From positions 1 to 36,752 of the forward strand of contig JAQSCR010000271.1 of NCBI GenBank assembly GCA_029945495.1: a stretch of DNA of 36,752 nt, in the 5' to 3' direction. Shown here one piece after another: positions 1 to 30,058 of this stretch. Within the stretch, counting starts at the first letter, position 1, and every line of letters begins with the position of its first letter. This DNA comes from Pseudolabrys sp. (lineage in GTDB: Bacteria; Pseudomonadota; Alphaproteobacteria; Rhizobiales; Xanthobacteraceae). The translations under genes were made by a program, and so were the position numbers. The notes beneath the pieces are model-generated. The model searched no databases. It worked only from the letters and a program-made list of their open reading frames with translations, and was not told the DNA's origin.

Positions 1-304
1 CGATGACATGCCCTTTGGTCATGACCGGGGCATGCAGCACCAGGCCCTGCTCGCCGTGCACGATATGGCTCCAGGTCAGGCCGAAATCGTTGTCGCGCAA
101 CCAGAACGGCGAATAAGCCTGCACCAGCGCATAAGTCGGCAACGCCTTGAGGTTGTCCTCGTAAACGAAGGCGAGCTCGTCGGCGTTCACCGGGTCCTGG
201 CCTAGCCCCAAGCCGAGCGCATAAAGAATGCAGTCCTTCGGGCCGTAGCTTTGCTCGACCGGCGGAATCTTGAAGGACAGCAGTCTGTCGAGGTTGAGCG
301 GCAT
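1..304 (-). CDS. MaoC-like / hydratase-2 dehydratase, N-terminal part (truncated by window start)
   Basis: Reverse-strand translation from ATG at 304: MPLNLDRLLSFKIPPVEQSYGPKDCILYALGLGLGQDPVNADELAFVYEDNLKALPTYALV..., typical of the N-terminal hydratase-2 (MFE-2/MaoC) domain. Open to window edge, so absent from the ORF track. Confidence 0.75.
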   Translation of the reverse strand, partial: MPLNLDRLLSFKIPPVEQSYGPKDCILYALGLGLGQDPVNADELAFVYEDNLKALPTYALVQAYSPFWLRDNDFGLTWSHIVHGEQGLVLHAPVMTKGHVI

Positions 305-316: not shown

Positions 317-1423
317 CTAGCGCCCCCACACTTCGTCCGCCAGTTCGACGATCATGCGCAGTTTGGCCCATTGCTGCTCCTCGTCGAGCACGTTGCCCTC
401 CTCGGTCGAGGCAAAGCCGCATTGCGGCGACAGGCAAAGCTGCTCGAGCGGGGCGAATTTCGCCGCCTCATCGATGCGGCGCTTCAGCTCGTCCTTGGAT
501 TCGAGCTTGCCGGATTTCGAGGTGACCAGGCCGAGCACCACCGTCTTGTCCTTCGGCAGCAGCCGCAGCGGTTCGAAATTTCCGGCGCGGGCGTCGTCAT
601 ATTCCATGAAGAAGCCGTGCACGTTGATCTTGTTGAACAGGATTTCCTGCACCGCCTCGTAGCCGCCGGCGCCCATATAGGTCGATTTATAATTGCCGCG
701 ACACATATGCATGGTGATGGTCATGTCGGACGGAATATCCGACATCGCCACGTTGATGAGATCGGCGTAGCGCTCGCCGAGCTCTTCCGGATCGTCGCCG
801 CGGTCCTTCATCTGCTGGCGGTATTTCGCATCGCACAGCATGGCGATGAACACTTCGTCGAGCTGCAGATAACGGCAGCCGGCGTCGGCGAAGCCACGCA
901 CGGCTTTTTTGTAGGCCTGGCCGAGATCGGCAAACAGCGATTCGCGCGTCGGATAGACGTTTCTGTCGACCGGCGGCTTGACCGGCCGGCCATACATCGC
1001 CGACGGCGCGGGAATCGTGATCTTCGCCGTCTGTCTGGTATGCGCGGCGAGGAATTTGAAATGCTCGATCATCGGATGATGCGCCGAGCCGAGCTTGCCG
1101 GTGACCTTGACGCCTTCGTTGCGCGTGGTGACCGCGGCGAAGGCGACGCCTGAGTCCATCACATGCTTCTCGGCGCCGTCGAGGCCCCAGAGAAAATCGA
1201 GATGCCACCAGGAGCGGCGGAATTCGCCGTCGGTGACGGACTTGAGGCCGACCTCTTCCTGCTTCTTGATGACGCGCTCGATCTCGCGGTCTTCCACCGC
1301 CTTCAGCGCGGCGGCGTCGATCTCGCCTTTGGCGAATTTGGTGCGCGCTTCCTTGAGCGCGGCGGGACGCAGCAGACTGCCGACGTGGTCGGCGCGGAAC
1401 GGCGGTTTGGTGCGCGTGCTCAT
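317..1423 (-). CDS. Core-MetE-like (cobalamin-independent methionine synthase C-terminal-like) methyltransferase, paralogue A
   Basis: 368 aa; PPFRADHVGSLLR N-terminus, zinc-site motifs HMC (MHMCRGN), EYD, SPQCGF; no MetE N-terminal half. Confidence 0.88.
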   Translation of the reverse strand: MSTRTKPPFRADHVGSLLRPAALKEARTKFAKGEIDAAALKAVEDREIERVIKKQEEVGLKSVTDGEFRRSWWHLDFLWGLDGAEKHVMDSGVAFAAVTTRNEGVKVTGKLGSAHHPMIEHFKFLAAHTRQTAKITIPAPSAMYGRPVKPPVDRNVYPTRESLFADLGQAYKKAVRGFADAGCRYLQLDEVFIAMLCDAKYRQQMKDRGDDPEELGERYADLINVAMSDIPSDMTITMHMCRGNYKSTYMGAGGYEAVQEILFNKINVHGFFMEYDDARAGNFEPLRLLPKDKTVVLGLVTSKSGKLESKDELKRRIDEAAKFAPLEQLCLSPQCGFASTEEGNVLDEEQQWAKLRMIVELADEVWGR

Positions 1424-1428
1424 CTAAC

Positions 1429-2535
1429 TTACCCCCACACTTCTTCGGACACTTCGACGATCATGCGCAGCTTGGCCCACTGCTCGTTTTCGGCCAGGAT
1501 ATTGCCGTCCTCGGTCGAGGCAAAGCCGCATTGCGGCGACAGGCATAGCTGCTCGAGCGGAATGAATTTGGCGGCCTCGTCGATGCGGCGCTTGAGCTCG
1601 TCCTTCGATTCGAGCCGGCCCGACTTCGACGTCACCAGGCCGAGCACCACCGTCTTGCCTTTCGGCACGAAGCGCAGCGGCTCGAAGCCGCCGGCGCGGT
1701 CCGAATCGTATTCCATGAAGTAGCCGTGCACGTTGATGGTGTTGAACAGGATTTCCGCCACCGGCTCGTAGCCGCCCGAGGCGACGAAGGTGGACTGGAA
1801 ATTGCCGCGGCACAGATGCATGGCGATAGTCATGTCGGCGGGAATGTCCGACATCGCCGCGTTGATCATGCCGGCATAGATCATCGGCAGGCTGGAAGGA
1901 TCGTCGCCGCGGCGGGCGACCTGCTCGCGCAGCTTCGGATCGCACAGATAAGTGAAATTGACCTCGTCGAGCTGCAGATAGCGGCAACCGGCGTCGGCAA
2001 AGGCGCGCACGGCCTTGGCATAGGTGGCGCCGAGGTCGCGGTAGAATTCGCCCATGTCGGGATAGATACTTTCCGGCACGGCGTCGCGGCCATAACGGAA
2101 ATGCAGACTGGACGGCGAGGGTATCGTCATCTTCGGCGTCGCGCGCGTATGCGCCTTGACGAACTTGAAATGTTCCAGCATCGGGTGGCCGGAAAACGTG
2201 CCGAGCGGGCCCACGACGCGCAGCATCATCGGCTTGGGATTGACGCCCTCGAACTTGATCTTGCGCTCGCCGAGATAGGCTTCGACGCCGTCGAGCTGGC
2301 CGAGGAAATCGTAGTTCCAGAAAGCGCGGCGGAATTCGCCGTCGGTGACCGACTTGAGGCCGATGTCTTCCTGCTTCCTGATAATGCCGGCGATCTCGCG
2401 GTCTTCGACGTCCTTCAACACCTCGGCGGCGATCTCGCCCTTCTCGCGTTGCGCGCGCGCCTGTTTGAGCGACGCGGTGCGCAACAGGCTGCCGACATGG
2501 TCGGCGCGGAACGGAGGCGATTGACGCAACGTCAC
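1429..2535 (-). CDS. Core-MetE-like methyltransferase, paralogue B
   Basis: Same family; MHLCRGN, MEYD, SPQCGF. ORF track starts at TTG 2544, but the GTG at 2535 overlaps the preceding gene's stop (TAGTG) and is a better start. Confidence 0.87.
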   Translation of the reverse strand: MTLRQSPPFRADHVGSLLRTASLKQARAQREKGEIAAEVLKDVEDREIAGIIRKQEDIGLKSVTDGEFRRAFWNYDFLGQLDGVEAYLGERKIKFEGVNPKPMMLRVVGPLGTFSGHPMLEHFKFVKAHTRATPKMTIPSPSSLHFRYGRDAVPESIYPDMGEFYRDLGATYAKAVRAFADAGCRYLQLDEVNFTYLCDPKLREQVARRGDDPSSLPMIYAGMINAAMSDIPADMTIAMHLCRGNFQSTFVASGGYEPVAEILFNTINVHGYFMEYDSDRAGGFEPLRFVPKGKTVVLGLVTSKSGRLESKDELKRRIDEAAKFIPLEQLCLSPQCGFASTEDGNILAENEQWAKLRMIVEVSEEVWG

Positions 2536-3638
2536 TAGCCCCAAACCTCTTTCGACACTTCAACGATCATGCGCAGCTTGGCCCACTGCTCGTCCTCGGC
2601 CAGCACATTGCCTTCCTCGGTTGAGGAAAAGCCACACTGCGGCGACAGGCAAAGCTGCTCGAGTGCGACATATTTGGTGGCCTGGTCGATGCGGCGCTTG
2701 ATGTCGTCCTTGGACTCGAGCGTACCGCTCTTGGAGGTGACCAGGCCCAGCACCAGTTGCTTGTCGCCTTTCGGGAAATAACGCAACGGTTCGAAGCCGC
2801 CGGCGCGATCGGTGTCGTATTCGAGGAAGTAGCCGTCGAGATTGGTCTTGCCGAGCAGATGCTCGGCGACGAATTCGTAGCCGCCTTGCGCGATCCAGGT
2901 CGAACGGAAATTGCCGCGGCAGGAGTGCATGGTGATCGCCATGTCGGCCGGCTTGTCCTTGAGCGCCGCATTGGTCACGCGCGCATAGATTTCCGGCAAC
3001 TTGTCGGGATCGTCGCCGCGCGCCTTCGAGCCCTCGCGTTCCTTCGGATCGCACATCATCGCCCAGGCGGTGTCGTCGAGTTGCAGATAGCGGCAGCCGG
3101 CGTCGTAGAAGGCGCGGATTGCCCTCTGCCAGGCCTTGCCGACATCGTCGAAGAACACGTCGAGATCGGGATAGGCCTCCGTGCTCACCATTTTTCGGCC
3201 TTGCCGGAAGTGGAAGGTTGACGGTGCCGGGATCGTCATCTTCGGCGTAACGTTGCAATGAGCCTTCAGGAACTTGAAATGGTCGAGATGCGCATGGCCG
3301 GCGAATTCGACCTTGCGGTTGATCTTGATGGCCTCGCTCTTGGTTTCGATGCCGTGAAATTTGATTGGCGGTCCAACGACGAGGTCGACGCCCTGCAGGC
3401 CACGGAAGAAATCGAAATGCCACCAGGAGCGGCGGAACTCGCCGTCGGTGGCGAGCTGCAGGCCGATCTCTTCCTGCTTCTTGACGACCTTGATGATCTC
3501 GCGGTCTTCGATCTCTTTTAATGCGGCGGCGGTGATGTCGCCTGTGGCGTGCTTGGCGCGCGCGTCCTTGAGCACGGCGGGGCGCAGCAGGCTGCCGACA
3601 TGATCGGCGCGGAACGGCGGCGATTTGCGTTGCGACAT
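2535..3638 (-). CDS. Core-MetE-like methyltransferase, paralogue C
   Basis: 367 aa; MHSCRGN, LEYD, SPQCGF; LQLDDTAW signature shared with paralogue D. Confidence 0.88.
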   Translation of the reverse strand: MSQRKSPPFRADHVGSLLRPAVLKDARAKHATGDITAAALKEIEDREIIKVVKKQEEIGLQLATDGEFRRSWWHFDFFRGLQGVDLVVGPPIKFHGIETKSEAIKINRKVEFAGHAHLDHFKFLKAHCNVTPKMTIPAPSTFHFRQGRKMVSTEAYPDLDVFFDDVGKAWQRAIRAFYDAGCRYLQLDDTAWAMMCDPKEREGSKARGDDPDKLPEIYARVTNAALKDKPADMAITMHSCRGNFRSTWIAQGGYEFVAEHLLGKTNLDGYFLEYDTDRAGGFEPLRYFPKGDKQLVLGLVTSKSGTLESKDDIKRRIDQATKYVALEQLCLSPQCGFSSTEEGNVLAEDEQWAKLRMIVEVSKEVWG

Positions 3639-3668
3639 GATTCACTCCCGGATTTTATTGATCTTCCG

Positions 3669-3685
3669 GCCGGGCTTGTCCCGGC
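3669..3685. repeat. REP-like intergenic palindrome (GCCGGG-CTTGT-CCCGGC)
   Basis: Perfect 6-bp inverted repeat, 5-nt loop, in the 206-bp gap between paralogues C and D. Confidence 0.5.
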
Positions 3686-3844
3686 TCGTTTTCATCTGTC
3701 CTTTATATTCGAAGGACGGCGAGCCACAAGCGCATTGGCCCTTCGTTTTCGGCGTGCCACGCGCGCGTTTTCGCGCGGCTCGACGGAGCATATCGAGCCG
3801 GACGGGACGACCGATAAAGTCACCCCGCCCGCTCGGTTACGGCG

Positions 3845-4948
3845 CTACTTGCCCCAGACGTCCTTCGAGATCTCGATGATCTCCTTGAGCTTGGCCCACT
3901 GCTCGTCATAGGCCAGCGTATTGCCTTCCTCGGTCGAGGCAAAACCGCACTGCGGCGACAGGCAGAGTTGCTCGAGTGCGACGAACTTCTCGGCTTCCTT
4001 GATGCGCTTCTTGATATCCGCGGTCGGCTCCAGCGTGCCGATCTTCGAGGTAATGAGACCGAGCACGACCTGCTTGTGGCCTTTCGGCAGAAAGCGCAGC
4101 GGTTCGAAGCCGCCGGCGCGGTCGGTGTCGTATTCGAGGAAGTAGCCGTCGTAATTGCACTTGGCCAACAGGCTCTCGGCCACCGGTTCGTAGCCGCCCG
4201 ACGAAATGAAGGTCGAACGGAAATTACCGCGGCAGACATGGGTGGTGATGGTCATGTCGGCGGGCTTCGCCTCGAGCGCCTTGTTGATCATCTTGGTGTA
4301 GCTGTCCTGCAGATGATCGACATCGAGGCCGCGGTCGCGCGCCTTCTTCAGCTCTTCTTCCGAGCACAGATAGGCCCAAGCGGTGTCGTCGAACTGCAGA
4401 TAGCGGCAGCCGGCGTCGTAAAACGCCTTGATCGCCTTCTGATAAGCGATCGCCAGATCGTCGAAGATCGCGTCGCGGCTGGCATAGGCGTTTTTCTCGA
4501 CGGCATCCGGCTCGAGGCGGAAATGCATCACGCCCGGCGACGGGATCGTCATCTTCGGCGTCACCTTGGTGTTCGCCTTGAGGAACTTGAAATGCTCGAG
4601 CATCGGATGATTGGAGAAGCCGATCTTGCCGGTGACGTGGATCGACCTCGCCTTGGTCAGGACGCCCTGGAACTGAATGCCCTTACCGGCGATGATCTCG
4701 ACGCCGTCGAGCCCGCCGAAGAAGTCGTAGTGCCACCACGAGCGGCGGAACTCGCCGTCGGTGGCAAGTTGCAGGCCAATGCCTTCCTGCTGCTTGATGA
4801 CCTTGACGATCTCGGCGTCTTCGACGGCCTTGAGCTGGGCATCGGTGATCTCGCCCTTCTCGTGCTTGGCCCGCGCCTCTTTGATCGGCGCGGTGCGCAG
4901 GAAGCTGCCGACATGGTCGGCGCGGAAGGGCGGTTTGGTTCGTTGCAT
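3845..4948 (-). CDS. Core-MetE-like methyltransferase, paralogue D
   Basis: 367 aa; THVCRGN, LEYD, SPQCGF; LQFDDTAW signature. Confidence 0.88.
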   Translation of the reverse strand: MQRTKPPFRADHVGSFLRTAPIKEARAKHEKGEITDAQLKAVEDAEIVKVIKQQEGIGLQLATDGEFRRSWWHYDFFGGLDGVEIIAGKGIQFQGVLTKARSIHVTGKIGFSNHPMLEHFKFLKANTKVTPKMTIPSPGVMHFRLEPDAVEKNAYASRDAIFDDLAIAYQKAIKAFYDAGCRYLQFDDTAWAYLCSEEELKKARDRGLDVDHLQDSYTKMINKALEAKPADMTITTHVCRGNFRSTFISSGGYEPVAESLLAKCNYDGYFLEYDTDRAGGFEPLRFLPKGHKQVVLGLITSKIGTLEPTADIKKRIKEAEKFVALEQLCLSPQCGFASTEEGNTLAYDEQWAKLKEIIEISKDVWGK

Positions 4949-4987: not shown

Positions 4988-5758
4988 TTAATAGAGACCG
5001 GTTGCGACCGGCCGGCGGATGAGCACGGCTCCGGGCACGAGGTCGCGCGTGCCTTGATTGCGGAGAGCCAATTGCAGGTTTCGATGCGCCAGGCGCGCGT
5101 GTTCGCGCATCAACGCCTCGGCGCGGGCGCCCTCGCGCGCTTCGATGGCACGGGTCACGCAGTGATGATGGTCCTGCGCGATGATGAGAATCCGGCGCGC
5201 TTCCGGCAGCATCGCCTGAACCATGACAAAGCCGCTCGGCGAGGCGAACGGCAGATTAAGCGCCCGCTCGATCTGGCGCAGCAGGACCGGGCTATCGGCG
5301 GCGCTGATCAGCAGCGCGTGAAAATGCGCGTTGATTTCGACATATTCCGAGAAATCGTCGACCGAGAGGGTCGGCCGGGCGACCAGCGCGTCGAACTGCT
5401 GGAGATTGTCTTTCAGTTCGGCCAGCACCGAACCCTGCACGCCGCGTTCGGCGGCGATCCGCGCCGCGAAACCTTCCAGCGTTCCGCGCAGCTCGATGGC
5501 ATCGTAGATATCGCGTTCGGAAAACGCCTTGATGGCAAAACCGCCGGATGGGATCGCTTCGAGAAAGCCTTCCTCCTCGAGGCGGACCAGCGCCATCCGG
5601 ATCGGCGTGCGCTACATGCCGAGCCGGTCGACGATCGACAGCTCGGAGATGCGGTCGCCCGGCTTTAGGTCGCCGGACAGGATCAGGTCACGCAGGGCAA
5701 GCTGCGCCTTGACGGTCTGCGACGACGAGCGTTCGCCTTCGGCCGTATGGAGCGACAC
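4988..5758 (-). pseudogene. GntR-family (FCD/FadR-type) regulator interrupted by an in-frame TAG in the HTH
   Basis: GTG at 5758 reads MSLHTAEGERSSSQTVKAQLALRDLILSGDLKPGDRISELSIVDRLGM*RTPIRMALVRLEEEGFLEAIPSGGF...; TAG at 5612-5614 sits where GntR proteins have the Ser of LGvSRTPvR. Downstream ORF 4988-5596 encodes the rest. Confidence 0.85.
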
Positions 5759-6038: not shown

Positions 6039-7448
<1,410 letters not shown>

Positions 7449-7477: not shown

Positions 7478-7509
7478 ACGGCGTGGCACCAGGTGCCACG
7501 CCGTTTTTA
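7478..7509 (+). terminator. Rho-independent terminator downstream of ligM
   Basis: ACGGCGTGGCACC-A-GGTGCCACGCCGT perfect 13-bp arms followed by TTTTATTT. Confidence 0.88.
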
Positions 7510-7551: not shown

Positions 7552-8421
7552 TCAGGCCATGGCAGGGCTTACAGACATCCGCAACGCCAGATCATGCGCG
7601 TAGCGCGCGGTATTTTCGAAACCGCCGAACGAGAAATAATGCGGTGCGATGGCGCCGATACCGGACGCTTCGGCGGCCAGTTCCCTGACGATCTCTTCCG
7701 GTCCGACATTGCCGAGCAGGCTGGCCGCGGCGCCGGAGGCCATGCCGCGCATCGACGCGTTGACGCCGCACAGCTTGGCATAACGCAACAACGACTTGAA
7801 ACTGGTTGGCCCGGCCAAGCCGACCTGAACCGGCGTGGTGATGCCTTGCGCGCGCAGGCGTTTAAGCCAGGCGACGATCGGCGCGGCTTCGAAAGCGAAC
7901 TGGCTGACGATGGTGACACCGAGGCCAGCATCGGCCGCCGCCGACAGCTTCGCCGGCAAGGCGGCATCGATCTTGTCCTGATCGATGCGGGAGTGGCCTT
8001 CGGGGTATCCGCCGATGCCGATATTTTCGATGCCTGCTTCGCGCAGTCTGCCGTTACGAATGACACTGAGCGCATCGGCATAAGGCCCGGCCTGATCGAT
8101 ATCGCCAGCGATCACCAGCACCCGTCTGACGTCGGCGTCGCCGCGCAGCCGGGCGACGAAATCGTCGAGTTCGGCCTTCGACGTCATGCGTCGGGCCGAC
8201 AGATGGACGACCGGTTCAAGCCCGGCTCGCCGCGCTTCGCCGGCGAGAACCGCGAGGTCAGGCAACGACTGGGTCGGCACCGAGCTGATAAACAGCTGCC
8301 GGCCTTTGCCGACAACACCGGCAACCGCGGCAATCTCGGCGGGCTTCGGCCGCGTCGCCTCGATCGAATAGCCGTTTACAAACGCAGCCGCTTGGCCGGT
8401 GGTCGCTGAACGAACTAACAT
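7552..8421 (-). CDS. metF: Methylenetetrahydrofolate reductase-like protein (divergent MetF)
   Basis: 289 aa TIM-barrel-like; VIAGDIDQAGPYADAL, GIGGYPEGHSRIDQD, VSQFAFEAAPIVAWLKRLRAQGI match MetF landmarks. Confidence 0.78.
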   Translation of the reverse strand: MLVRSATTGQAAAFVNGYSIEATRPKPAEIAAVAGVVGKGRQLFISSVPTQSLPDLAVLAGEARRAGLEPVVHLSARRMTSKAELDDFVARLRGDADVRRVLVIAGDIDQAGPYADALSVIRNGRLREAGIENIGIGGYPEGHSRIDQDKIDAALPAKLSAAADAGLGVTIVSQFAFEAAPIVAWLKRLRAQGITTPVQVGLAGPTSFKSLLRYAKLCGVNASMRGMASGAAASLLGNVGPEEIVRELAAEASGIGAIAPHYFSFGGFENTARYAHDLALRMSVSPAMA

Positions 8422-8468: not shown

Positions 8469-9878
8469 TCATTCCCGGCGCCGTGAAATCACAAATGACT
8501 CGTCGTAGAACCACAGCCCGCCGTGCTTTTGCAGCGTGTCGCGCGTCGCCTCGATGTAGCGGCGGTCGCTGTTGACGTCGCTCAAGCGGTCGTCCTCCAC
8601 CTGCGCGACATAGACCGCCGCGTTCCAGGCGGCGAGCAGCGTCGAGGTGCCGATCGACGACGAGACTTCCGACGGCAGCGTGTGCATGTCGTAGCGGAAC
8701 AGCGAACGCTGGTCGGAATAGGCGTTGAAGTTGAGGTCGCGCGCCGCCGAGCCCAATTCGTGCTTGGTTTCCTTGAGCAGGTCGTGGCGGCTGTGCGTGA
8801 ACGGATTGTCCTCCGGCCACACTGTGTGAACGATTTCCATCGCCGGATCGTGGCCGTAGGACTGGATCGCGATCATGCGGCCGCCGGGGCCGAGCGCGCG
8901 CGCCAGCGGCGCCAGCACGCGCTTGGCCTTGAACTCGAGCGAGGCGCGGGCGCGATAGGGCTGCGAAGCGATGACCAGATCGTAGTCGGCGGTGGTGCCG
9001 CCCGGCTTCGGGATGACCTGATCGAGCAGGAAGCGATGGTCGTTGCGGTAGATCACCAGCACGACCGGGCGCTCATAGACCGGATTGCCGCTCTTCGGCG
9101 ACACTTTCGCCTTCCAGCTTTCGGCAAGGAACGGCTCGAGCGCGGTGATCTGCTCTTCGAACGTGTGGGCGGTGCCGCCGTCCATCGCCAGCTCTTTCCA
9201 CACCATGCTGGTGGCCGCCGACAGCGACTTGGCGGCGAGCCACGGCGCTTCGGCATAAGCGAGATTGGTCAGCACCAGCACCGTTGAGGGATGCTCGACG
9301 AAACGGTCGGCCATCTTGTGCAGCGTCAGGCGGACGTCTTCGAGGCTGATTTCCTTGCCGACAATGTAGTGCGGCATGGTCGGGAAGCGGTCGTGCATCG
9401 AGCGCATGACGCGGGTCAGCACACCGCCGTCGCCGATGCCGGCGTCGAACACGCGCACCGCCGGCGGACGCGGATGAATATTGGCCAGCTCCAGGCTGAC
9501 GCGCTGCGCGACCTCCCATTTCTCGCTGCAGGTATTCACGAACAGCAGATATTTCTGGCGATTATCGAAGAAGCGGAAATTGCGTTGCGGATCGTCATCC
9601 GTCTGGTTCGTGGCCATTGGCGGCGCCTGCGGTTTGATGATGGGTAGCGATTGCGCGGAAGGCGCGTCGAAAAGCACACGGCGACGCGCCGGGGCGCCAT
9701 CACCGGTTTGCGACATGAAGGCGCGGATACGGTCCAGCGTGTCGGTGGTGATGCGGCCGCCATTGCGCAGCCGGCTGGCGAGCTTGCCGTCATTGACGGC
9801 GCGGCGTCCGAAGGTTGATTCGGCTAAGCCCCGCTGGCGGCAGAATTCACTGATCTCCTGGAGAATGACCTCGTTCAT
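8469..9878 (-). CDS. HTH-type N-terminus fused to SAM-methyltransferase-like domain, function unknown
   Basis: From ATG 9878: MNEVILQEISEFCRQRGLAESTFGRRAVNDGKLASRLRNGGRITTDTLDRIRAFM (HTH-like), then VRVFDAGIGDGGVLTRVMRSMH (motif I-like) and DYDLVIASQPYRARASLEFKAKRVLAPLARALGPGGRMIAIQSYG (MTase-like). Confidence 0.65.
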   Translation of the reverse strand: MNEVILQEISEFCRQRGLAESTFGRRAVNDGKLASRLRNGGRITTDTLDRIRAFMSQTGDGAPARRRVLFDAPSAQSLPIIKPQAPPMATNQTDDDPQRNFRFFDNRQKYLLFVNTCSEKWEVAQRVSLELANIHPRPPAVRVFDAGIGDGGVLTRVMRSMHDRFPTMPHYIVGKEISLEDVRLTLHKMADRFVEHPSTVLVLTNLAYAEAPWLAAKSLSAATSMVWKELAMDGGTAHTFEEQITALEPFLAESWKAKVSPKSGNPVYERPVVLVIYRNDHRFLLDQVIPKPGGTTADYDLVIASQPYRARASLEFKAKRVLAPLARALGPGGRMIAIQSYGHDPAMEIVHTVWPEDNPFTHSRHDLLKETKHELGSAARDLNFNAYSDQRSLFRYDMHTLPSEVSSSIGTSTLLAAWNAAVYVAQVEDDRLSDVNSDRRYIEATRDTLQKHGGLWFYDESFVISRRRE

Positions 9879-10210: not shown

Positions 10211-10819
10211 CTAGATTTCGAAGAAGACGGTTTCGTCGCCGCCCTGCACCCGGATATCGAAACGGTACTGGTGATCGGTGCCGGGCTGCTTGTGGGCAAT
10301 GAGGGTGCCGCGACGATCTTCCGGCACCAGCGTCAGGATCGGGTCGCTGGCGTTGGCGGGCTCGTCATCGAAATACAGCCGCGTGTAGACCTGCCGGAGC
10401 ATGCCGCGCGAGAAGATGCAGACCACGATGTGCGGCGCCTGCGGTTTGCCGCCCGGCCCGGGCACCTGCCCCGGCTTGATGGTGTCGAAGGCAAAGACGC
10501 CGGCCTTGTCGGTCGCCGAACGGCCGAAGCCCTTGAACTTGGTATTGGGCGCGCGGTTGTCACGCGCATGGGCATAGCGGCCCTGGCTGTCGGCCTGCCA
10601 GATTTCGATCATGCAGTCGTTGATCGGCAGACCGTCGCCGTCGAGCACGACGCCCTCGATGCGAATGCGGGTGCCGGACGCGTCCGGCGTCACCAGATTG
10701 GATTCGACGGTGTTCTTCCAGCTGTAGCTGCCGTTCGGGTCCCATTCGCAGCGGCCCTTGGGCGTGAGGCCATAGGCGAAGAACGGACCGACGGTCTGTG
10801 AAGGTGTGATTTCGGACAT
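10211..10819 (-). CDS. pcaG: Protocatechuate 3,4-dioxygenase alpha subunit
   Basis: 202 aa; MSEITPSQTVGPFFAYGL..., IEIWQADSQGRYAH, GFGRSATDKAGVFAFDTIKPG, PHIVVCIFSRGMLRQVYTRLYF. Confidence 0.95.
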   Translation of the reverse strand: MSEITPSQTVGPFFAYGLTPKGRCEWDPNGSYSWKNTVESNLVTPDASGTRIRIEGVVLDGDGLPINDCMIEIWQADSQGRYAHARDNRAPNTKFKGFGRSATDKAGVFAFDTIKPGQVPGPGGKPQAPHIVVCIFSRGMLRQVYTRLYFDDEPANASDPILTLVPEDRRGTLIAHKQPGTDHQYRFDIRVQGGDETVFFEI

Positions 10820-10897: not shown

Positions 10898-11605
10898 CTA
10901 ATGTTCGTCGTTGTCGAGCGGGGTCGCTTCGCGGCCGCGCAGCACGATGTCGAAGCGGAAGGCCAGCGCCCAGCCCGGCTCGGTGTTCTCGAGATCGAAT
11001 GTGGAAACCATGCGCTGGCGCGCCTTCTCCTCGGTCACCGAATTGAAGATCGGGTCATACGGGAACAGATAGTCGCCGGGGAAATACATCTGGGTGACCA
11101 GCCGCGACAGGAACGAGTGGCCGAACACCGAGAAGTGGATGTGGTTCGGCCGCCAGGCGTTGTGGTGGTTGCCCCACGGATAAGCGCCCGGCTTCACCGT
11201 GATGAACTTGTAATAGCCTTTGGCGTCGGTGACGGTACGCCCGGCGCCAGTGAAATTCGGATCGAGCGGCGCCGGATGCTGGTCGACGTTATGGACGTAA
11301 CGGCCGCAGGCATTGGCCTGCCACAGCTCGACCAGCGCGTTCGGCACCGGGCGCTTGTCCTCGTCAAGAACGTGGCCATGCACGATGATGCGCTCACCGA
11401 GCGGCTCGCCCTTGTGCTGCTTGGTGAGATCGTTGTCGCCTTCCTGGATCGCGTCATGGCCGTAAACCGGGCCGGTCAGCTCCGACAGAGTGTGCGGCAT
11501 GATCATCAGCGGCTTCGACGGCGAGCGCTTGACCGTGCTCTTGTAGCCGGGCGAGAGATGCTTGGGATAAGCATCCAGGCTTTTCGTTGGAAAAATCAGC
11601 GACAT
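10898..11605 (-). CDS. pcaH: Protocatechuate 3,4-dioxygenase beta subunit
   Basis: ATG at 11605: MSLIFPTKSLDAYPKHLSPGYKSTVKRSP...; VELWQANACGRYVHNVDQHPAPLDPNFTGAGR; YPWGNHHNAWRPNHIHFSVFG. ORF track start 11719 is too long. Confidence 0.95.
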   Translation of the reverse strand: MSLIFPTKSLDAYPKHLSPGYKSTVKRSPSKPLMIMPHTLSELTGPVYGHDAIQEGDNDLTKQHKGEPLGERIIVHGHVLDEDKRPVPNALVELWQANACGRYVHNVDQHPAPLDPNFTGAGRTVTDAKGYYKFITVKPGAYPWGNHHNAWRPNHIHFSVFGHSFLSRLVTQMYFPGDYLFPYDPIFNSVTEEKARQRMVSTFDLENTEPGWALAFRFDIVLRGREATPLDNDEH

Positions 11606-11627: not shown

Positions 11628-12839
<1,212 letters not shown>

Positions 12840-12876: not shown

Positions 12877-13656
12877 TTACGCCGCCGCATGAGCGCGGTT
12901 GGTGCGCGCATGCAGCTCGCGCAGCACGTCGAGTTCCTTGGCCGTCGGCACCGGTGTTTCCGCCACTTGCGCGGCTAACTTGACCGGCCAGCCGGTATTT
13001 TCCTGGATCTGCTCGCGGGTCACGCCCGGATGGATCGAGACCACCGTCATTTCCTTGGTCGCCGGATCGGGAGCCCAGATCGCCAGATCGGTAATCAGCT
13101 TGGTTGGGCCCTTGGTCTTGACGCCCAGTTTGGCGCGGCTGTCGCCGCCGCTGACGTGGCCGATCGATGTGACGAAATCAAGCTTGTCGACGAAGCTGCG
13201 CTTGCCCTGCGCCATGATGATAAGGATTTCACCGCAAGACGTGGCGATTTCCGGCGCGCCGCCGCCACCAGGCAGACGGACCTTCGGTCTGTCGTAAGGA
13301 CCGACCACTGTGGTGTTGAGGTTGGCGTATTTGTCGATCTGAGCGCCGCCGAGGAAGCCGACCTTGATGCGGCCGCCTTGCAGCCAGTAGCGGAACATTT
13401 CCGGCACCGACACCGTGGTCAGCGCGGTCTCGCACAATTCGCCGTCGCCGATCGACAAAGGCAGCACGGTCGGCTTGGTGGCGAGCGTGCCGGATTCATA
13501 AATCAGGGTGATATCCGGCGCATGCGTCAGGCGCGCGAGGTTGCAGGCCGCGGACGGCTGTCCGATACCGACGAAACATATGTCATCGTTCTTGAGCGCG
13601 CGAGCCGCGGCAACCGTCATCATTTCGGTCGGCTTGTAATCGGCCATTGTCGTCAC
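12877..13656 (-). CDS. pcaJ: 3-oxoadipate CoA-transferase, beta subunit (glutaconate-CoA-transferase/CatJ type)
   Basis: 259 aa; FVGIGQPSAACNLARLTHAPDITLIYESG, GFLGGAQIDKYANLNTT; GTGA overlap with pcaI stop (alternative ATG 13647). Confidence 0.85.
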   Translation of the reverse strand: MTTMADYKPTEMMTVAAARALKNDDICFVGIGQPSAACNLARLTHAPDITLIYESGTLATKPTVLPLSIGDGELCETALTTVSVPEMFRYWLQGGRIKVGFLGGAQIDKYANLNTTVVGPYDRPKVRLPGGGGAPEIATSCGEILIIMAQGKRSFVDKLDFVTSIGHVSGGDSRAKLGVKTKGPTKLITDLAIWAPDPATKEMTVVSIHPGVTREQIQENTGWPVKLAAQVAETPVPTAKELDVLRELHARTNRAHAAA

Positions 13657-14513
13657 TCCGCCGCCGCTTTGTGTTTACGCGCATATTGCACGAAGGCATC
13701 GGGCCCCTTGTCGAGAACGTTTGTCTTCATCCAGGCCTGGAAGCTGTCGCGATCCTTGGCGATGTCGTCCCACTGCTTGTAGAAGCTGTTGTTGCGCGGG
13801 TAATAGCCCTGCGCATAGGACGGAAACGCGCCGCCCGGTACTTCGACAACATGGCCCACGGTCCAGTGCGGCAATACCACCGCGTTCAGGCTGCGCTCCG
13901 GCAATTCGTCGACGATCTCCTCAACCGTTACCACCGAACGCTTGGAGGCGAGCACGGCTTCCTTCTGCACGCCGAGCACGCCCTCGATCATCACATTGCC
14001 GGCTCTGTCGGCGCGTTGGGCATGGATCACCGCGACATCGGGCCGGTGGGACGGAATGGCGGCAAGCTCCTCGCCGGTGAATGGGCAGGTGATGCGCTTG
14101 ATCTTGGCATTCACCTTGGGCAGGTCGCCGCCGATATAGCCGCGAAAAATCGCGCAGGGCAGACCGGAAGCGCCGGCCTCATAGGCATTGGCCATGGCGG
14201 CGTGCGAATGCTCTTCGAGCTCGAGTTTATGCGGCCAGCCGTTTTCCACCGCGTCGCGGAAACGGTGCAGCGAGCCGACGCCGGGATTGCCGCCCCAGGA
14301 AAACACCAGTTTGCTGACGCAGCCCATGCCGATCATCTGGTCATAGACCAGATCCGGCGTCATGCGCACCAGCGTGAGATTTTTCCGGCCCTGGCGGATG
14401 ATTTCATGGCAGGCGGCGTGCGGAATGAGGTGCGTGAAGCCTTCCAGCGCAATCGTATCGCCGTCATGGACGGCCATTGCGATAGCGTCGGCAAGTGACG
14501 TAATGCGCGCCAT
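13653..14513 (-). CDS. pcaI: 3-oxoadipate CoA-transferase, alpha subunit (glutaconate-CoA-transferase/CatI type)
   Basis: 286 aa; DGDTIALEGFTHLIPHAACHEIIRQGRKNLTLVRMTPDLVYDQMIGMGCVSKLVFSWGGNPGVGSLHRFRDAVENGWP. Confidence 0.85.
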   Translation of the reverse strand: MARITSLADAIAMAVHDGDTIALEGFTHLIPHAACHEIIRQGRKNLTLVRMTPDLVYDQMIGMGCVSKLVFSWGGNPGVGSLHRFRDAVENGWPHKLELEEHSHAAMANAYEAGASGLPCAIFRGYIGGDLPKVNAKIKRITCPFTGEELAAIPSHRPDVAVIHAQRADRAGNVMIEGVLGVQKEAVLASKRSVVTVEEIVDELPERSLNAVVLPHWTVGHVVEVPGGAFPSYAQGYYPRNNSFYKQWDDIAKDRDSFQAWMKTNVLDKGPDAFVQYARKHKAAAE

Positions 14514-16736: not shown

Positions 16737-18608
16737 ATGCCGCTACCGACACGCATGACCCGACCCGCCGCCGCGCCGCTCCGCGCAGTACGGCTGGGCG
16801 CGCTCGACGCCGTGCTCGACCGGCGCGCCGACGGCACGATCTATATCCGCACCTCGCAGGCGCTCGGCCGCTATCGCGACAGGGTGAGCGAGCCGCTCGA
16901 CTATTGGGCCAAGGCCGCGCCCGACCGCGTGTTCCTGGCGCAGCGCGACCCACAGGACCGATGGCGCACGATGAGCTATGCCGAGACGCGCGACGCGGTG
17001 GCGCGCATCGGCGCCTCGCTGCTGCGGCGCGGGCTTTCTCCCGAGCGGCCAATCGTTGTCTTGTCCGGCAACAGCATCGAGCATGCGCTGCTGGCGCTCG
17101 CCGCGATGGTCGTCGGCATTCCCTATGCGCCGGTGTCGCCGGCCTATTCGCTGATGTCGAGCGACTTCGGCAAGCTGCGCATGATTATCGATCTGCTGAC
17201 GCCCGGCCTGGTCTTCGCCGGCGACGGCAACGCCTTCGGCAAGGCGATCGCCGCTTGCGTGCCGGACGAGATTGAACTTGTCGTGACGCAAAATCCGCCG
17301 GCCGGGCGCAAGACGACCCTGTTCGCCGACCTACTTGGCGATGAAGATGCCGCCGGTGTCGCCGCCGCGCACAGCGACGTGACACCGACAACAATCGCCA
17401 AATTCCTGTTCACCTCCGGTTCGACTGGCACGCCGAAAGCGGTGATCAACACGCACCGCATGCTGTGCTCGAACCAGGCCATGCTGGCGCACGGCTTCCC
17501 GTTCGTCAAAGACGAACCGCCGGTCGTGGTCGACTGGCTGCCCTGGAGCCACACCTTCGGCAGCAACCACAACTTCAATCTGGTGCTGATGAACGGCGGC
17601 TCGCTCTATATCGACGACGGCAATCCGACACCGCCGGGCGCGCCGAAGACCGCGCGCAACCTGCGCGACATCGCGCCGACGATCTATTTCAACGTGCCGA
17701 AAGGCTACGAGGCGCTGGTGCCTTTTCTGCGGGACGACGCGGTGTTGCGCAAAAACTTCTTCAGCCGCCTGAACGTGCTGTTCTACGCCGGCGCCGGCAT
17801 TAGCCGGTCGGTGCGGGACGACCTGACAGCGCTCGCGGTGGAGACGACGGGCGAGCGAATTATCTTTCTGTCGTCGCTCGGGTCGACGGAAACCGCGCCG
17901 GCGGCGCTGGTCTGCACCTGGGATTTCGACAGCCCCGGCAATATCGGACTGCCTTTCCCGGGTGTCGAGCTCAAGCTGGTGCCGAACAGCGGCAAGCTGG
18001 AAGCGCGCCTGCGCGGTCCGCACATCACGCCCGGCTACTGGCGGCAGGAGCACCACACGCGCGACGCCTTCGATGCCGAGGGCTTCTACAAGCTCGGCGA
18101 CGCGTTGAAATTCGCCGACCCCGACGATCCGGGCAAAGGCCTGCTGTTCGACGGCCGCATCGCCGAGGACTTCAAGCTGTCGACCGGCACCTGGGTCAGC
18201 GTCGGGCCGTTGCGCGCGCGCTTCATCGATTTTTTCGCGCCGCTGGTGCGCGACGTGGTGTTTGCCGGCGCCGACCGCGACGATATCGGCGCGCTGGTGT
18301 TCCCCGACATCGAAGCCTGCCGCACGCTGGCCGGGTTCGACGCCAAGGCGACGGCCGACGCGATTGTCGACGCCCCGGCGGTGCGCGCCAAATTCGCCGA
18401 GCTGCTGCGCGCCTTTGCCGCCGGTCAGGGATCGTCGATGCGGGTGATGCGGCTGACCCTGATGGCCGAGCCGCCGTCGCTCGACAAGGCCGAGATGACA
18501 GATAAAGGCTCGATCAACCAGCGCGCCGTGCTGGCCAGCCGCGCCGCGCTCGCCGCACAGCTTTATGCCGAACCAGTGCCCGAAACCGTGATTGCGATGT
18601 CGCCATGA
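16737..18608 (+). CDS. fcs: Feruloyl-CoA synthase-like ANL ligase, copy 1
   Basis: 623 aa; [65 protein letters not shown]. Confidence 0.87.
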   Translation: MPLPTRMTRPAAAPLRAVRLGALDAVLDRRADGTIYIRTSQALGRYRDRVSEPLDYWAKAAPDRVFLAQRDPQDRWRTMSYAETRDAVARIGASLLRRGLSPERPIVVLSGNSIEHALLALAAMVVGIPYAPVSPAYSLMSSDFGKLRMIIDLLTPGLVFAGDGNAFGKAIAACVPDEIELVVTQNPPAGRKTTLFADLLGDEDAAGVAAAHSDVTPTTIAKFLFTSGSTGTPKAVINTHRMLCSNQAMLAHGFPFVKDEPPVVVDWLPWSHTFGSNHNFNLVLMNGGSLYIDDGNPTPPGAPKTARNLRDIAPTIYFNVPKGYEALVPFLRDDAVLRKNFFSRLNVLFYAGAGISRSVRDDLTALAVETTGERIIFLSSLGSTETAPAALVCTWDFDSPGNIGLPFPGVELKLVPNSGKLEARLRGPHITPGYWRQEHHTRDAFDAEGFYKLGDALKFADPDDPGKGLLFDGRIAEDFKLSTGTWVSVGPLRARFIDFFAPLVRDVVFAGADRDDIGALVFPDIEACRTLAGFDAKATADAIVDAPAVRAKFAELLRAFAAGQGSSMRVMRLTLMAEPPSLDKAEMTDKGSINQRAVLASRAALAAQLYAEPVPETVIAMSP

Positions 18609-20476
18609 ATGCCGAGCCCGCCCGCCCAATCCCGAGCGACCCCGCGCCGCTGCGGCCGGTGACGCTTGGGGTCCAGGATGTGATCGTCGAGAAGCGCGCC
18701 GACGGCAGCATGTTGCTGCGTTCGCCGCAGGTGCTCGGGCCTTACCCGGCCAAGATCACGGAACGGCTGGTCTATTGGGCGAAACACGCGCCCGACCGCG
18801 CGCTGTTCGCGCAGCGCGATGCGACCGGCGCGTGGCGCACGGTCACCTACGCGCAGGCGCTGCAACAGGCGCGCGCCATCGGCGAGGCGCTGCTTACGCG
18901 TAATCTTTCGGCCGAGCGGCCGATTGCCATCCTGTCCGGCAACGATATCGAACACGCGCTGCTGGCGCTCGGCGCGCTCTATGCCGGCATTCCACACGCA
19001 CCGATCTCGCCGGCCTACTCGCTGGTGTCCAACGACCTGGCGCGACTGCGCTCTATTTTCGAACTGATCACGCCGGGACTGGTATTCGCCGCCGACGGCA
19101 ATGCTTTTGGACGCGCCATTCAATCCGTCGTGCCGGCCGACGTCGACGTCGTGCTGACGCGCAATCCGACGCAAGGGCGCGCCGCCATTCCATTCGACAA
19201 GCTTGGCGTCACCCCGACGGCGGCGATCGACGCCGCGCATGACGCGGTCGGCCCCGACACGATTGCGAAATTCCTGTTCACCTCCGGTTCGACCGGCGTG
19301 CCGAAATGCGTCATCAACACCCAGCGCATGTGGTGCGCCAACCAGGTGATGCTGCAGCATAGCCTTCCCTATTTCGCTGAAGAGCCGCCAGTGATCGTCG
19401 ACTGGGCGCCGTGGCACCACACAGCCGGCGGCAACCACAATGTCGGTCTCGTGCTCCATAATGGCGGCACGTTCTACATCGACTACGGCAAGCCGCTGCC
19501 GGGCGCCATCGAAGAAACCGTGCGCAACCTGCGTGAGATCGCGCCGACCTGGTACTTCAACGTGCCGAAGGGATTCGAGGCGCTGCTGCCCTATCTGCGT
19601 AGCGACGAGCAGCTGCGCAAGAACTTCTTCAGCCGCGTCAAAATGCTGTGGTTTGCCGGCGCGGCCTTGGCGCAGCACGTGTTCGACGAAATCCAGGAAC
19701 TGGCTGTGCAGGCCTGCGGCGAGCGCATTCTGTTCTCGACCGGCTTCGGCTCGACCGAGACGGCGCCAGAAGCGCTGGCGCGCACCTGGCCGACGGAGAA
19801 CGCCGCCAATATGGGGCTGCCAACCGCCGGAATGGAGCTGAAACTGGTGCCGAACGAAGGCAAGCTGGAGGCGCGCGTGCGCGGCCCCAACATCACGCCC
19901 GGCTACTGGCGGCAGCCGGAATACACCGCGCAGGCTTTCGACGAAGAAGGCTTCTACAAGCTCGGCGACGCCTTCAAGTTCGCCGACCCGAACGATCCGA
20001 AGCAGGGTCTTTTATTCGACGGCCGCACGGCCGAGAATTTCAAGCTCGCCACCGGCACCTGGGTGCATGTCGGCCCGCTGCGCGCGCAGTTCGTCGATGC
20101 CTTCGCGCCTTATGTGCGCGACGTCGTCATCGCCGGCGAAGGTTGCGACGACATCGCCGTTCTGGTGTTCCCGCATATCGATGCCTGCCAAGCTCTTTGC
20201 CCGGACCTTCCCGCCGATGCCGCGCCGGAGCGCGTCGTCGAGGACGCCCGCGTGTGCGCACACTTCACGATGCTCCTGGAAAAGATGGCACGCACCAGCA
20301 CCGGCTCGTCGACCAAAATCTGCCGCGCGCTGCTGATGGCCGAGCCACCGTCGATGGACAAAGGCGAGATGACCGACAAGGGATCGATCAACCAGCGCGC
20401 CGTGCTGCGCGATCGTGCAGCGTTAGTGGATGAAGTTTACGCCGACGCGCCCTCGCCGCGCGTCATTCGAATCTAA
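18605..20476 (+). CDS. fcs: Feruloyl-CoA synthase-like ANL ligase, copy 2
   Basis: 623 aa; [53 protein letters not shown] overlap with copy 1. Confidence 0.85.
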
Positions 20477-26649: not shown

Positions 26650-28362
26650 GTGTACACAGCAGGCACGGCCTTTCTCGAAGCTCTCAAGGAGGCCGGCGTC
26701 TCCTATATTTTCGCCAATCTCGGCAGCGATCATCCGGCGATCGTCGAGTCGGTCGCGGAGGGCAAGGCGAGCGCGCGCGGCTTCCCGGCCATGCTGACCT
26801 GTCCGAACGAGATGGTGGCGTTGAGCGCGGCGCATGGCTATGCCCAGATCAGCGGGCAAGCGCAGGCGGTGATCGTGCATGTCGAATGCGGCACCCAGGC
26901 GCTTGGCGGCGCCGTGCACAATGCCTTGCGCGGCCGCGTGCCGGTGCTGATCTTCGCCGGCGCCACGCCCTATACGCAGGAAGGCGAACTGAAGGGATCG
27001 CGCAACGAATGGATCCAGTGGATCCAGGACATCGCCGACCAGCGCGGCATCGTCCGCAACTATGTGAAGTTCGACTACGAATTCCGCACCGGCCGCAACA
27101 TCAAGCAGGTGACGCACCGCGCCATGCAACTGGCCAAGAGCGAGCCCAAGGGACCGGTCTATCTGGTCGGCGCGCGCGAGGTGATGGAAGAGGATGTCAC
27201 GCCCGTCGCCATCGACATGGCCGAATGGCCGCCGATCGCGCCGCTGCCGCTGTGCGCCAATGACGCCACGGAGCTAGCGCAGGCACTCAATAATGCAAAG
27301 CGCCCGCTTGTGGTGACCAGCGCGGTCGGCCGCAGTCCGGCCGCCGTTCCCGAACTGATCAAACTATGTCACCGCCTCGGCATCGCCGTGCTCGAGCAGT
27401 CGCCGGTCAACATGAACTATCCGGCCGACGATGCGCTCTATATGGGCAACCGCTGGAGCGAGCCGGTCCAGGAGCCAGTACTGGCGGAAGCCGACGTGAT
27501 CCTCGTGCTCGACAGCGATGCGCCGTGGGTGCCGTCGGTCAGCAAGCCATCACCGGGCGCCAAAATATTCCATATCGACGTCGATCCGCTCAAGCAGGAC
27601 ATTCCGCTCTGGTACTTCAAGGCGCAGCGCGTGTTCCAGGCCGACTGCGCGACGGCGTTGGAACAGGTCAATGCGGCGCTCGACGGCATGACGATCGACG
27701 CCGCCAGGGTCAGCGAACACAAGGCGCATTACGGCAAGATGCACGAGGCGCTGGCGGCGCAATGGCTCAAGCGCGAGCAGCCGAACGGCGCCATGATCAC
27801 CCCGGAATATTTCACCGCCTGTCTGCGCAAGCATATCGACGACAACACCATCATCCTCTCCGAGACGATCACCAACTACCCGACCATCGCCAACCATCTG
27901 CGGCCATCGCGGCCGGGGTCGTATTTCCTGAGCGGCGGCTCATCGCTCGGCTGGCATGGCGGCGCTGCCATCGGTGCCAAGCTCGCCTGCCCGGACAAGA
28001 CTGTGATCGCGCTCAGCGGCGACGGCTCCTACATGTTCTCGGTGCCATCGTCGGTGCACTGGATGGCGCGCAAATACGAGACGCCGTTCTTGCAGGTGAT
28101 CTACAACAATGGCGGCTGGCGTTCGCCGAAAATGTCGACGCTCGCCGTGCATCCCGATGGTTATGCCAGCCGCGCCAACGCGATCGGCGTCGAATTCGAT
28201 CCGGCGCCGGATCACGCCGCAATCGCCGCCGCCGCCGGCGGCGCCTGGGCGCGCAAACTGGAGCGGCCCGAAGACGTCGAAGCGACAATCGCCGAAGCGC
28301 TAAATGTGGTGCGTGAGGAAAAGCGCTGCGCCGTGCTCGACGTGCGCGTGCCGCATCTCTGA
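26650..28362 (+). CDS. Thiamine-diphosphate-dependent enzyme (acetolactate synthase/benzoylformate decarboxylase-like), copy 1
   Basis: GTG start; CPNEMVALSAAHGYAQ (catalytic Glu region), ThDP motif GDGSYMFS...VIYNN. Confidence 0.88.
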   Translation: MYTAGTAFLEALKEAGVSYIFANLGSDHPAIVESVAEGKASARGFPAMLTCPNEMVALSAAHGYAQISGQAQAVIVHVECGTQALGGAVHNALRGRVPVLIFAGATPYTQEGELKGSRNEWIQWIQDIADQRGIVRNYVKFDYEFRTGRNIKQVTHRAMQLAKSEPKGPVYLVGAREVMEEDVTPVAIDMAEWPPIAPLPLCANDATELAQALNNAKRPLVVTSAVGRSPAAVPELIKLCHRLGIAVLEQSPVNMNYPADDALYMGNRWSEPVQEPVLAEADVILVLDSDAPWVPSVSKPSPGAKIFHIDVDPLKQDIPLWYFKAQRVFQADCATALEQVNAALDGMTIDAARVSEHKAHYGKMHEALAAQWLKREQPNGAMITPEYFTACLRKHIDDNTIILSETITNYPTIANHLRPSRPGSYFLSGGSSLGWHGGAAIGAKLACPDKTVIALSGDGSYMFSVPSSVHWMARKYETPFLQVIYNNGGWRSPKMSTLAVHPDGYASRANAIGVEFDPAPDHAAIAAAAGGAWARKLERPEDVEATIAEALNVVREEKRCAVLDVRVPHL

Positions 28363-28452
28363 GGCCCAAGCTAACATCAGTGCTGAGACTATGTGCCGCA
28401 GTCCGGCCGCCGGCCTCGCTGTCATAAAACGAAAGCAACAACGGAGAGTGAC

Positions 28453-29895
28453 ATGAACGTATCGCTTCTGATCGACGGCGCCGACGTGCCGGCGCGCGAC
28501 AACAAGACTTTCGAGCGCCTCGATCCGGTGACCGGCAGCGTCGCCAGCACATCGCCGGCCGGCAAGGTCGCCGACGTCAACGCCGCCTGCGACGCGGCCG
28601 CCGCCGCGTTTCCGGCCTGGTCGGAAACCGGCCCGAACGAACGCCGCAAGCTGCTCTTGAAAGCGGCCGACATGCTGGAGGCGAGGACGCCGGACTTCAT
28701 CAAGCTGACGATGGAAGAGACCGGCGCGACCGCGCCGTGGTCGGGCTTCAATGTGATGTTCGCCGCCAAGATCCTGCGCGAAGCGGCCTGCATGACCACG
28801 ATGATTCATGGCGAGGTCATCCCGTCCGACAAGCCGGGCTGCTTCTCGATGGGCATCCGTCAGCCGGCCGGCGTCTGCGTCGGCATGGCGCCATGGAACG
28901 CGCCGGTCATTCTCGGCGTGCGAGCGGTGGCGATGCCGCTCGCCTGCGGCAACACCGTGGTGATGAAGGCGTCGGAAACCTGTCCCGCTACTCACTCGCT
29001 GATCGGCAAGGCGCTGCAGGAAGCAGGGATCCCGAAGGGCGTCATCAATGTGGTGACGCATGCGCGCGAGGACGCGCCGCAGGTCGTCGAAGCGCTGATC
29101 GCGCATCCCGCCGTGCGCCGCATCAACTTCACCGGATCGAGCCATGTCGGCCGCATCGTCGCGCAGACGGCCGCAAAATATCTCAAGCCCGTACTGCTGG
29201 AACTCGGCGGCAAGGCGCCGCTGCTGGTACTCGACGACGCCAATATCGACGACGCGGTCGATGCCGCGGCGTTCGGCGCCTACATGCATCAGGGTCAAAT
29301 CTGCATGTCGACCGAGCGCATCATCGTCGACAACAAGATCGCCGACGCCTTCGTCGGCAAGCTGGCGAACAAGGCGAACTCGCTGCCTTACGGCGACCCG
29401 CGCGGCAAGGTGGCGCTCGGCTCGCTGGTCAGCGCCCAATCCGCCGACCGCATGCAGGAATTGCTTGATGACGCGGTCAAACAGGGCGCCAAGCTTGTCG
29501 CTGGCGGCAAGCGCAGCGGCACGATCTGGTCGGCCACCTTGCTCGATCACGTCAACCCGCAGATGAAGATCTACCGGGAGGAATCGTTCGGCCCGGTGAA
29601 GAGTATCATCCGCGTTGATGGCGACGATGAGGCTGTAAGCATCGCCAACGATACCGAATACGGACTGTCGTCGGCGGTGTTCAGCCAGAACATCCAGCGC
29701 GCGATGGGTATCGCCAAGCGCATTCAGGCCGGTATCTGTCACATCAACGGCCCGACCGTGAACGACGAAGCGCAGATGCCGTTCGGCGGCACCAAGGACT
29801 CCGGCTACGGCCGATTCGGCGGCACCGCCGCGATCGCCGAGTTCACCGAGTTGCGCTGGATTACCATCGAAAGCCACCAGCACTACCCGTTCTGA
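28453..29895 (+). CDS. vdh: NAD(P)-dependent aldehyde dehydrogenase, vanillin/benzaldehyde/salicylaldehyde dehydrogenase type
   Basis: 480 aa from ATG 28453; APWNAPVILGVRAVAMPLACGNTVVMKASE, INFTGSSHVGRIVA, LELGGKAPLLVLDDANID, HQGQICMSTERIIV (active Cys), MPFGGTKDSGYGRFGG. Confidence 0.88.
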   Translation: MNVSLLIDGADVPARDNKTFERLDPVTGSVASTSPAGKVADVNAACDAAAAAFPAWSETGPNERRKLLLKAADMLEARTPDFIKLTMEETGATAPWSGFNVMFAAKILREAACMTTMIHGEVIPSDKPGCFSMGIRQPAGVCVGMAPWNAPVILGVRAVAMPLACGNTVVMKASETCPATHSLIGKALQEAGIPKGVINVVTHAREDAPQVVEALIAHPAVRRINFTGSSHVGRIVAQTAAKYLKPVLLELGGKAPLLVLDDANIDDAVDAAAFGAYMHQGQICMSTERIIVDNKIADAFVGKLANKANSLPYGDPRGKVALGSLVSAQSADRMQELLDDAVKQGAKLVAGGKRSGTIWSATLLDHVNPQMKIYREESFGPVKSIIRVDGDDEAVSIANDTEYGLSSAVFSQNIQRAMGIAKRIQAGICHINGPTVNDEAQMPFGGTKDSGYGRFGGTAAIAEFTELRWITIESHQHYPF

Positions 29896-29934
29896 GCAAG
29901 CTTTCTTCGGGGGGCCGTCGCCCACACGCAGAAC

Positions 29935-29981
29935 AGGCTCGCCGCGCTTGCATGGCTTCGACGCTTTGGCGCGGCGAGCCT
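29935..29981. terminator. Long hairpin AGGCTCGCCGCGC-(21 nt)-GCGCGGCGAGCCT downstream of vdh
   Basis: Perfect 13-bp arms, followed by TTGCTTGT; between vdh stop and next gene. Confidence 0.55.
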
Positions 29982-30017
29982 TTGCTTGTAAGGCTATGCT
30001 CCGTCGCGTAAAACACG

Positions 30018-30058
30018 CCGGAAAATAAATATCCGACGGCTTTGCGCGGATTTTCCGG
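30018..30058. promoter_or_regulatory. Inverted repeat CCGGAAAAT...ATTTTCCGG in leader of the second ThDP gene
   Basis: Perfect 9-bp arms ending 11 bp before ATG 30070; inner ATCCG/CGGAT pairing. Confidence 0.45.

Follow-up and report, generated by a model that had tools for sequence, protein, structure and literature searches.

Why would a soil-type bacterium keep four methionine-synthase-like genes in a row among genes for the breakdown of aromatic compounds? The question is raised by contig JAQSCR010000271.1 of Pseudolabrys sp. (assembly GCA_029945495.1), of which we analyzed positions 1 to 36,752 on the forward strand (36,752 nt, here called the window). Four complete open reading frames (ORFs) lie head to tail on the minus strand of the window, each encoding a protein of the core-MetE type, and we label them A to D from the first to the last transcribed. 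The presence of four old and different core-MetE copies within a conserved block for the breakdown of vanillate/protocatechuate (lignin-type aromatics) hints at a pathway devoted to the one-carbon groups that are removed from these aromatics.

Four core-MetE paralogues and their predicted active site

All four proteins score far above the 313-bit cut-off of NCBIfam PRK06520/NF005085 (512 to 590 bits), confirming the four head-to-tail core-MetE genes called in a first-pass annotation of this DNA. The annotation also had the joins right: the stop of B and the start of C have one base in common (TAGTG, 2537-2533), and 5 bp separate C from D (1424-1428); the gap between A and B is 206 bp. A, B, and C are 57 to 64% identical to D; among solved structures, D is closest to 1ypx (402 bits). 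Against the canonical MetE model TIGR01371 the four proteins reach 32 to 44 bits (cut-off, 930 bits), and at 367 to 368 aa they have neither the two-domain layout nor the folate-binding N-terminal half of canonical MetE.

By sequence, A to D resemble the YxjG/YxjH-type cobalamin-independent methionine synthase II (NF005085/PRK06520; Listeria-type structure 1ypx) in family, length, zinc motif, and fold. Genes of that type elsewhere are mostly single copy (sample of the order) and in some lineages lie near genes of methionine metabolism or of the S-adenosylmethionine (SAM) cycle, whereas here four to five paralogues sit inside an aromatic-catabolism block. The core-MetE/MesA-D folate-independent methionine synthases (PMC7005905, PMC7857596) likewise dispense with the folate-binding half and retain the zinc and homocysteine site, but A to D appear to belong to a different subfamily, and we saw no CoFeSP or Wood-Ljungdahl link at the array. 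The window proteins that we compared with Pfam include no DUF1852 (MesX), the neighbor expected for MesD.

A tree of 87 family members places each of the four paralogues in its own supported orthologous group, together with copies from many Hyphomicrobiales genomes, and the order A-B-C-D is kept across the genus. Recent redundant duplication is ruled out by this tree, which supports the view of A to D as old, distinct, and non-redundant paralogues; the first-pass annotation had likewise taken all four for intact, divergent proteins. A close member of the family occurs in 35 of 150 genomes sampled from the order, nearly always as one copy. In the sample of the bacterial family, at least one member is present in 179 of 250 genomes, multi-gene arrays being frequent in a subset of genera, and in the genus of the window the count is 42 of 44.

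We read active-site residues from an alignment to Escherichia coli MetE that took in 114 relatives, and the assignments are predictions at that level. The HxC...C zinc site and the positions of MetE S433, E484, H641, C643, C726, and the QxDE Asp are invariant in A to D and in 114/114 relatives; S433, E484, and the QxDE Asp correspond to the predicted homocysteine-binding residues. The zinc signature noted earlier, formed by the HxC motifs listed in Table 1, EYD, and the Cys of SPQCGF, is thus intact, with the caveat that the third zinc ligand of MetE, E665, aligns with the D and not the E of EYD (both letters are invariant).

Nineteen positions separate the groups A to D, and 10 of these fall in two strand-end segments, residues 136-146 and 186-200, that make up 7% of the protein (hypergeometric p, 3e-8, for segments picked after the positions had been seen). 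That the substrate-side segments differ was therefore a sound observation. The two segments are predicted to adjoin the homocysteine site and the presumed donor site. Because the predicted homocysteine ligands never vary among the relatives, specialized donors would fit A to D better; specialized acceptors, which the first-pass annotation had offered as an equal choice, are less likely.

Association with aromatic O-demethylation

LigM, a tetrahydrofolate (THF)-dependent O-demethylase, is encoded in 16 of the 44 genomes of the genus, and in all 16 its gene is divergent to an array gene at a distance of 0.2 to 1.4 kb. Of the 17 genomes in the sample of the bacterial family with a LigM over the cut-off, 14 have it next to an array gene. 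This placement is not one inherited accident, since a tree of flanking genes implies about six changes in the presence of LigM. Our first samples, in which near relatives with LigM were missing, contained no LigM in 80 fetched loci or in 20 whole genomes, and the impression they gave, that LigM is unrelated to the array, was overturned by the family and genus samples. The tie to aromatic O-demethylation proposed earlier is supported by these placements and by a reductase of the S6MTHFR type in the same block. LigM is not a general partner, as it is missing from 26 of the 42 array genomes of the genus as well as from the 20 genomes sampled first. The array is thus tied to aromatic O-demethylation, with LigM as an optional component.

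The reductase gene, which the first-pass annotation did not mention, matches canonical MetF entries in the Protein Data Bank (PDB) at 4e-10 or weaker, far below its match to 7xg9, which we take to be the S6MTHFR of Sphingobium SYK-6. In SYK-6, S6MTHFR works with LigM, and this type of reductase is reported to run in the oxidative direction (PMC12585457). The genes of that LigM-S6MTHFR one-carbon module adjoin, as those for LigM and the putative S6-type reductase do here; unlike the SYK-6 module, the Pseudolabrys genes are linked to a pca operon and to the four core-MetE genes, in a block that persists without LigM. The reductase slot of the LigM-bearing genomes G421 and G422 is filled by a much closer relative of 7xg9 (trees; 1e-85 for G421).

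In the loci of 41 further genomes of this genus, and allowing for occasional losses and contig breaks, the common layout is pcaI-J-F-H-G, a gene for a 469-aa protein, the methylenetetrahydrofolate reductase (MTHFR)-like gene, (ligM/vanR-like), A-B-C-D, and a MaoC hydratase gene. The 3' part of the block holds a short-chain dehydrogenase/reductase in some loci, the MaoC hydratase, an acyl-coenzyme A (acyl-CoA) dehydrogenase, and a CoA-transferase III. The constant neighbors of the array in the genus are the pca genes and the reductase; in other genera the array adjoins a branched-chain-amino-acid-type ABC transporter instead, a link present in about 37 of 80 loci.

A second demethylation system recurs near these genes. 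Genome G431 has vanA, an FCD regulator gene, and vanB in the block in place of LigM; core-MetE genes lie near vanAB at four further loci (L022, L026, L051, and L060), and VanAB-like, gallate-pathway, and core-MetE genes are grouped independently on a Pantoea plasmid. The GntR/FCD regulator beside the array genes in the window is of the same family as the one found with vanAB in G431. Unlike LigM, VanAB releases formaldehyde, and a link between VanAB and core-MetE was not described in the literature that we searched (mostly without subscription papers).

Sequence identities between loci point to the movement of part of the block. Compared with the LigM-less sisters G437 and G391, PcaI, PcaF, and the 469-aa protein are 95 to 97% identical (the 469-aa protein, 96 to 97%), whereas the reductase is 50 to 51%, A is 81%, and B is 91 to 92% identical, and LigM and the regulator are absent. 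The corresponding values for LigM-bearing G432 are 96% for the 469-aa protein, 82% for the reductase, 96% each for LigM and the regulator, 94% for A, and 90% for B. As identity drops at the reductase and A relative to the sisters and not relative to G432, the genes for the reductase, LigM, the regulator, and A seem to have been exchanged between lineages as a unit, and their joint exchange is an argument for A acting together with LigM and the reductase. Given that D is also variable (79 to 80% identity to two sisters and 88% to a third), this may not be the sole exchange.

Possible roles of the array

The reading that we favor, and to which we give about an even chance, is that the array serves a methoxyaromatic one-carbon module as its methyl-assimilating arm. 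LigM would demethylate vanillate-type aromatics to protocatechuate and 5-methyl-THF, a task that in relatives would fall to VanAB, with release of formaldehyde; the pca gene products would degrade the ring, and the S6MTHFR-type reductase would interconvert 5-methyl-THF and 5,10-methylene-THF. A to D, as zinc-dependent homocysteine S-methyltransferases, would then move the one-carbon group into methionine, with homocysteine as the acceptor for all four and with different donors or donor carriers, which may be why four copies are kept. Homocysteine is suggested as the acceptor because two contexts point to it: in Bradyrhizobium, single-copy relatives have metK and ahcY as neighbors, and yxjH of Lactobacillus is cotranscribed with luxS and induced by a lack of methionine (PMC6004538). 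The earlier proposal of methyl-transfer enzymes that handle the products of O-demethylation thus gains a genomic tie, while the methyl transfer itself is predicted.

Several points weigh against this proposal, and it is weakest where the donor is concerned. A to D lack the folate-binding half, and no gene for a corrinoid protein, as an alternative donor, was found among the scanned window genes. The catalytic His of MetE (DxHSP motif) is replaced by Lys in 114/114 relatives, and the residue at the position of the CWS Trp, which in MetE lies near the pterin, is not Trp in A to D. With the folate-binding domain absent and this Trp replaced, the use of methyl-THF by A to D is uncertain; based on these residue patterns, the acceptor chemistry looks retained and donor handling unlike that of canonical MetE. 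LigM and a VanA of at least 60% identity are both absent from 18 of the array genomes of the genus, although some of these genomes are incomplete and not every such absence is certain. Unless methionine is used further, a catabolic flux of methyl groups into it would also be far above need. Lastly, the same genome encodes a canonical MetF and a MetH whose gene is split over contig ends, and these already cover methionine, so the array is not needed for its supply; four copies do exceed the housekeeping need, as the first-pass annotation held. A second MetF-like gene of this genome (contig C88:2414-3252) appears split into two pieces.

In an alternative that we consider unlikely, the array and reductase handle formaldehyde-derived methylene-THF, the reductase working in its normal direction, A to D fixing methyl-THF into methionine, and LigM being a later plug-in. 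The vanAB genes in the G431 block and near core-MetE at the four loci named above would fit, as would the fact that most genomes have the block without LigM, but the reductase is of the type reported to be oxidative (PMC12585457; match to 7xg9).

It is rather improbable that B, C, and D, perhaps with A, constitute a new, zinc-dependent class of aryl-methyl-ether O-demethylases with a MetE fold, each serving a different methoxyaromatic and replacing LigM or VanAB where both are absent. A zinc-bound thiol, probably homocysteine, would attack the methoxy methyl directly and would itself be the methyl acceptor. Multi-copy arrays do persist in the 18 genus genomes without LigM or a close VanA, the positions separating A to D are on the presumed donor side, and the array lies beside protocatechuate genes. 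Further, LigM is present in 8/8 loci that have A only, and 0/25 LigM-less loci are A-only (Fisher 1.3e-4, uncorrected). On the tree, however, reduction to A alone accounts for two events only, and the correlation is not significant after correction, so we make no claim that LigM is a functional substitute for B to D; moreover, the full array is kept together with LigM in the window and in G432, G427, G337, and G420. Aryl ethers are also poor donors for a thiolate, and no evident role would be left for the S6-type reductase.

We have little confidence in the view that A to D are ordinary auxiliary methionine synthases, held in several copies for dosage or different regulation, with the aromatic neighborhood incidental. 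It would agree with family membership (NF005085), with the single-copy relatives beside metK and ahcY, and with the methionine-regulated YxjH of Lactobacillus (PMC6004538). On the other side, the four groups are old and each conserved, the block and the LigM placement recur, MetH and MetF are present, and no Rfam match to a riboswitch was obtained in the window or in four related loci. It is very unlikely that A to D add a thiol to a non-methyl electrophile (an epoxide or activated aromatic) in the manner of epoxyalkane:coenzyme M transferase, which shares the wider UroD/MetE superfamily with core-MetE (PMC10418091), since, despite this kinship and the placement in catabolic clusters with CoA-pathway genes, the residues that hold homocysteine in MetE are invariant here, unlike in that enzyme, the conserved block showed no epoxide-forming gene, and the S6-type reductase points to folate one-carbon chemistry.

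The LigM-S6MTHFR module and the core methionine synthases are already known. Our literature search, made largely outside the subscription literature, returned no paper on a multi-paralogue core-MetE array joined to LigM-S6MTHFR or to a pca operon, nothing on core-MetE with methoxyaromatics, and no study of the methyl donor of YxjG/YxjH-type core-MetE. Proteins of this type occur widely, and annotation as methionine synthases is routine for them; in the present block they have a physical and evolutionary tie to lignin-type aromatic demethylation, and the array makes the question of their methyl donor directly testable. It may also represent a methyl-assimilation arm added to LigM-type demethylation, a known bottleneck in lignin bioconversion.

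Other features of the locus and genome

Table 1. Genes of the array and of the adjoining conserved block in the window
Feature	Position	Strand	Evidence and remarks
MaoC/MFE-2-type hydratase	2..304	-	PF22622; cut by contig end; kept after array; MaoC domain in full-length relative
Core-MetE paralogue D (MHMCRGN)	317..1423	-	368 aa; NF005085, 512 bits; own orthologous group
Core-MetE paralogue C (MHLCRGN; GTG start)	1429..2535	-	368 aa; NF005085, 531 bits; own orthologous group
Core-MetE paralogue B (MHSCRGN)	2535..3638	-	367 aa; NF005085, 568 bits; own orthologous group
Core-MetE paralogue A (PRK06520; THVCRGN)	3845..4948	-	367 aa; NF005085, 590 bits
GntR/FCD (VanR-like) regulator	4988..5752 (start approximate)	-	FCD PF07729; GntR and FCD in relative beside vanAB
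LigM-type THF-dependent vanillate/3-O-methylgallate O-demethylase	6045..7448	+	NF047885, 738 bits (cut-off, 580)
Methylenetetrahydrofolate reductase-like, S6MTHFR type	7552..8421	-	PF02219, 4e-12; best PDB match 7xg9, 5e-53
Conserved 469-aa protein, no assigned family	8469..9878	-	Beside core-MetE in two contexts
pcaG-like protocatechuate 3,4-dioxygenase subunit	10211..10819	-	PF00775
pcaH, protocatechuate 3,4-dioxygenase beta subunit	10898..11605	-	PF00775 and PF12391
pcaF-like thiolase	11628..12833	-	PF00108/PF02803
pcaJ-like CoA-transferase subunit	12877..13647	-	PF01144
pcaI-like CoA-transferase subunit	13653..14513	-	PF01144

The 469-aa protein has no Pfam or PDB match, and a homolog of about 63% identity is also encoded beside metK and ahcY in Bradyrhizobium. 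Its glycine-rich FDAGxGDG motif suggests a SAM-binding fold; a low-confidence structural model (pLDDT 59) gave no significant structural match. The regulator gene carries an in-frame TAG at 5599-5601 (minus strand) within the DNA-binding domain, leaving 4988-5596 open. All five relatives compared have Ser at this site, and the TAG is due to a recent knock-out or else to an error in the assembly. The interval that separates the convergent LigM and reductase genes holds a perfect 12-bp stem (7478-7504), probably a two-way terminator.

Farther along the window, 16755-20476 and 26650-31776 hold two tandem acyl-CoA synthetases (PRK12582) and two related thiamine-diphosphate enzymes (PRK08327) that flank an aldehyde dehydrogenase, suggesting a further side-chain degradation pathway. 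Outside the window, a core-MetE gene on a Klebsiella plasmid (locus L117) directly precedes annotated urea-type ABC transporter genes (urtABCDE), which recalls the transporter link described above. The genome to which the window belongs encodes about 18 proteins with a MetE core domain in all, on contigs C411, C392, C261, C12, C105, C397, C520, C114, C340, and others. The C411 copy lies among genes that, judged from N-terminal sequences, resemble those for a flavin monooxygenase, a VOC protein, and a P450.

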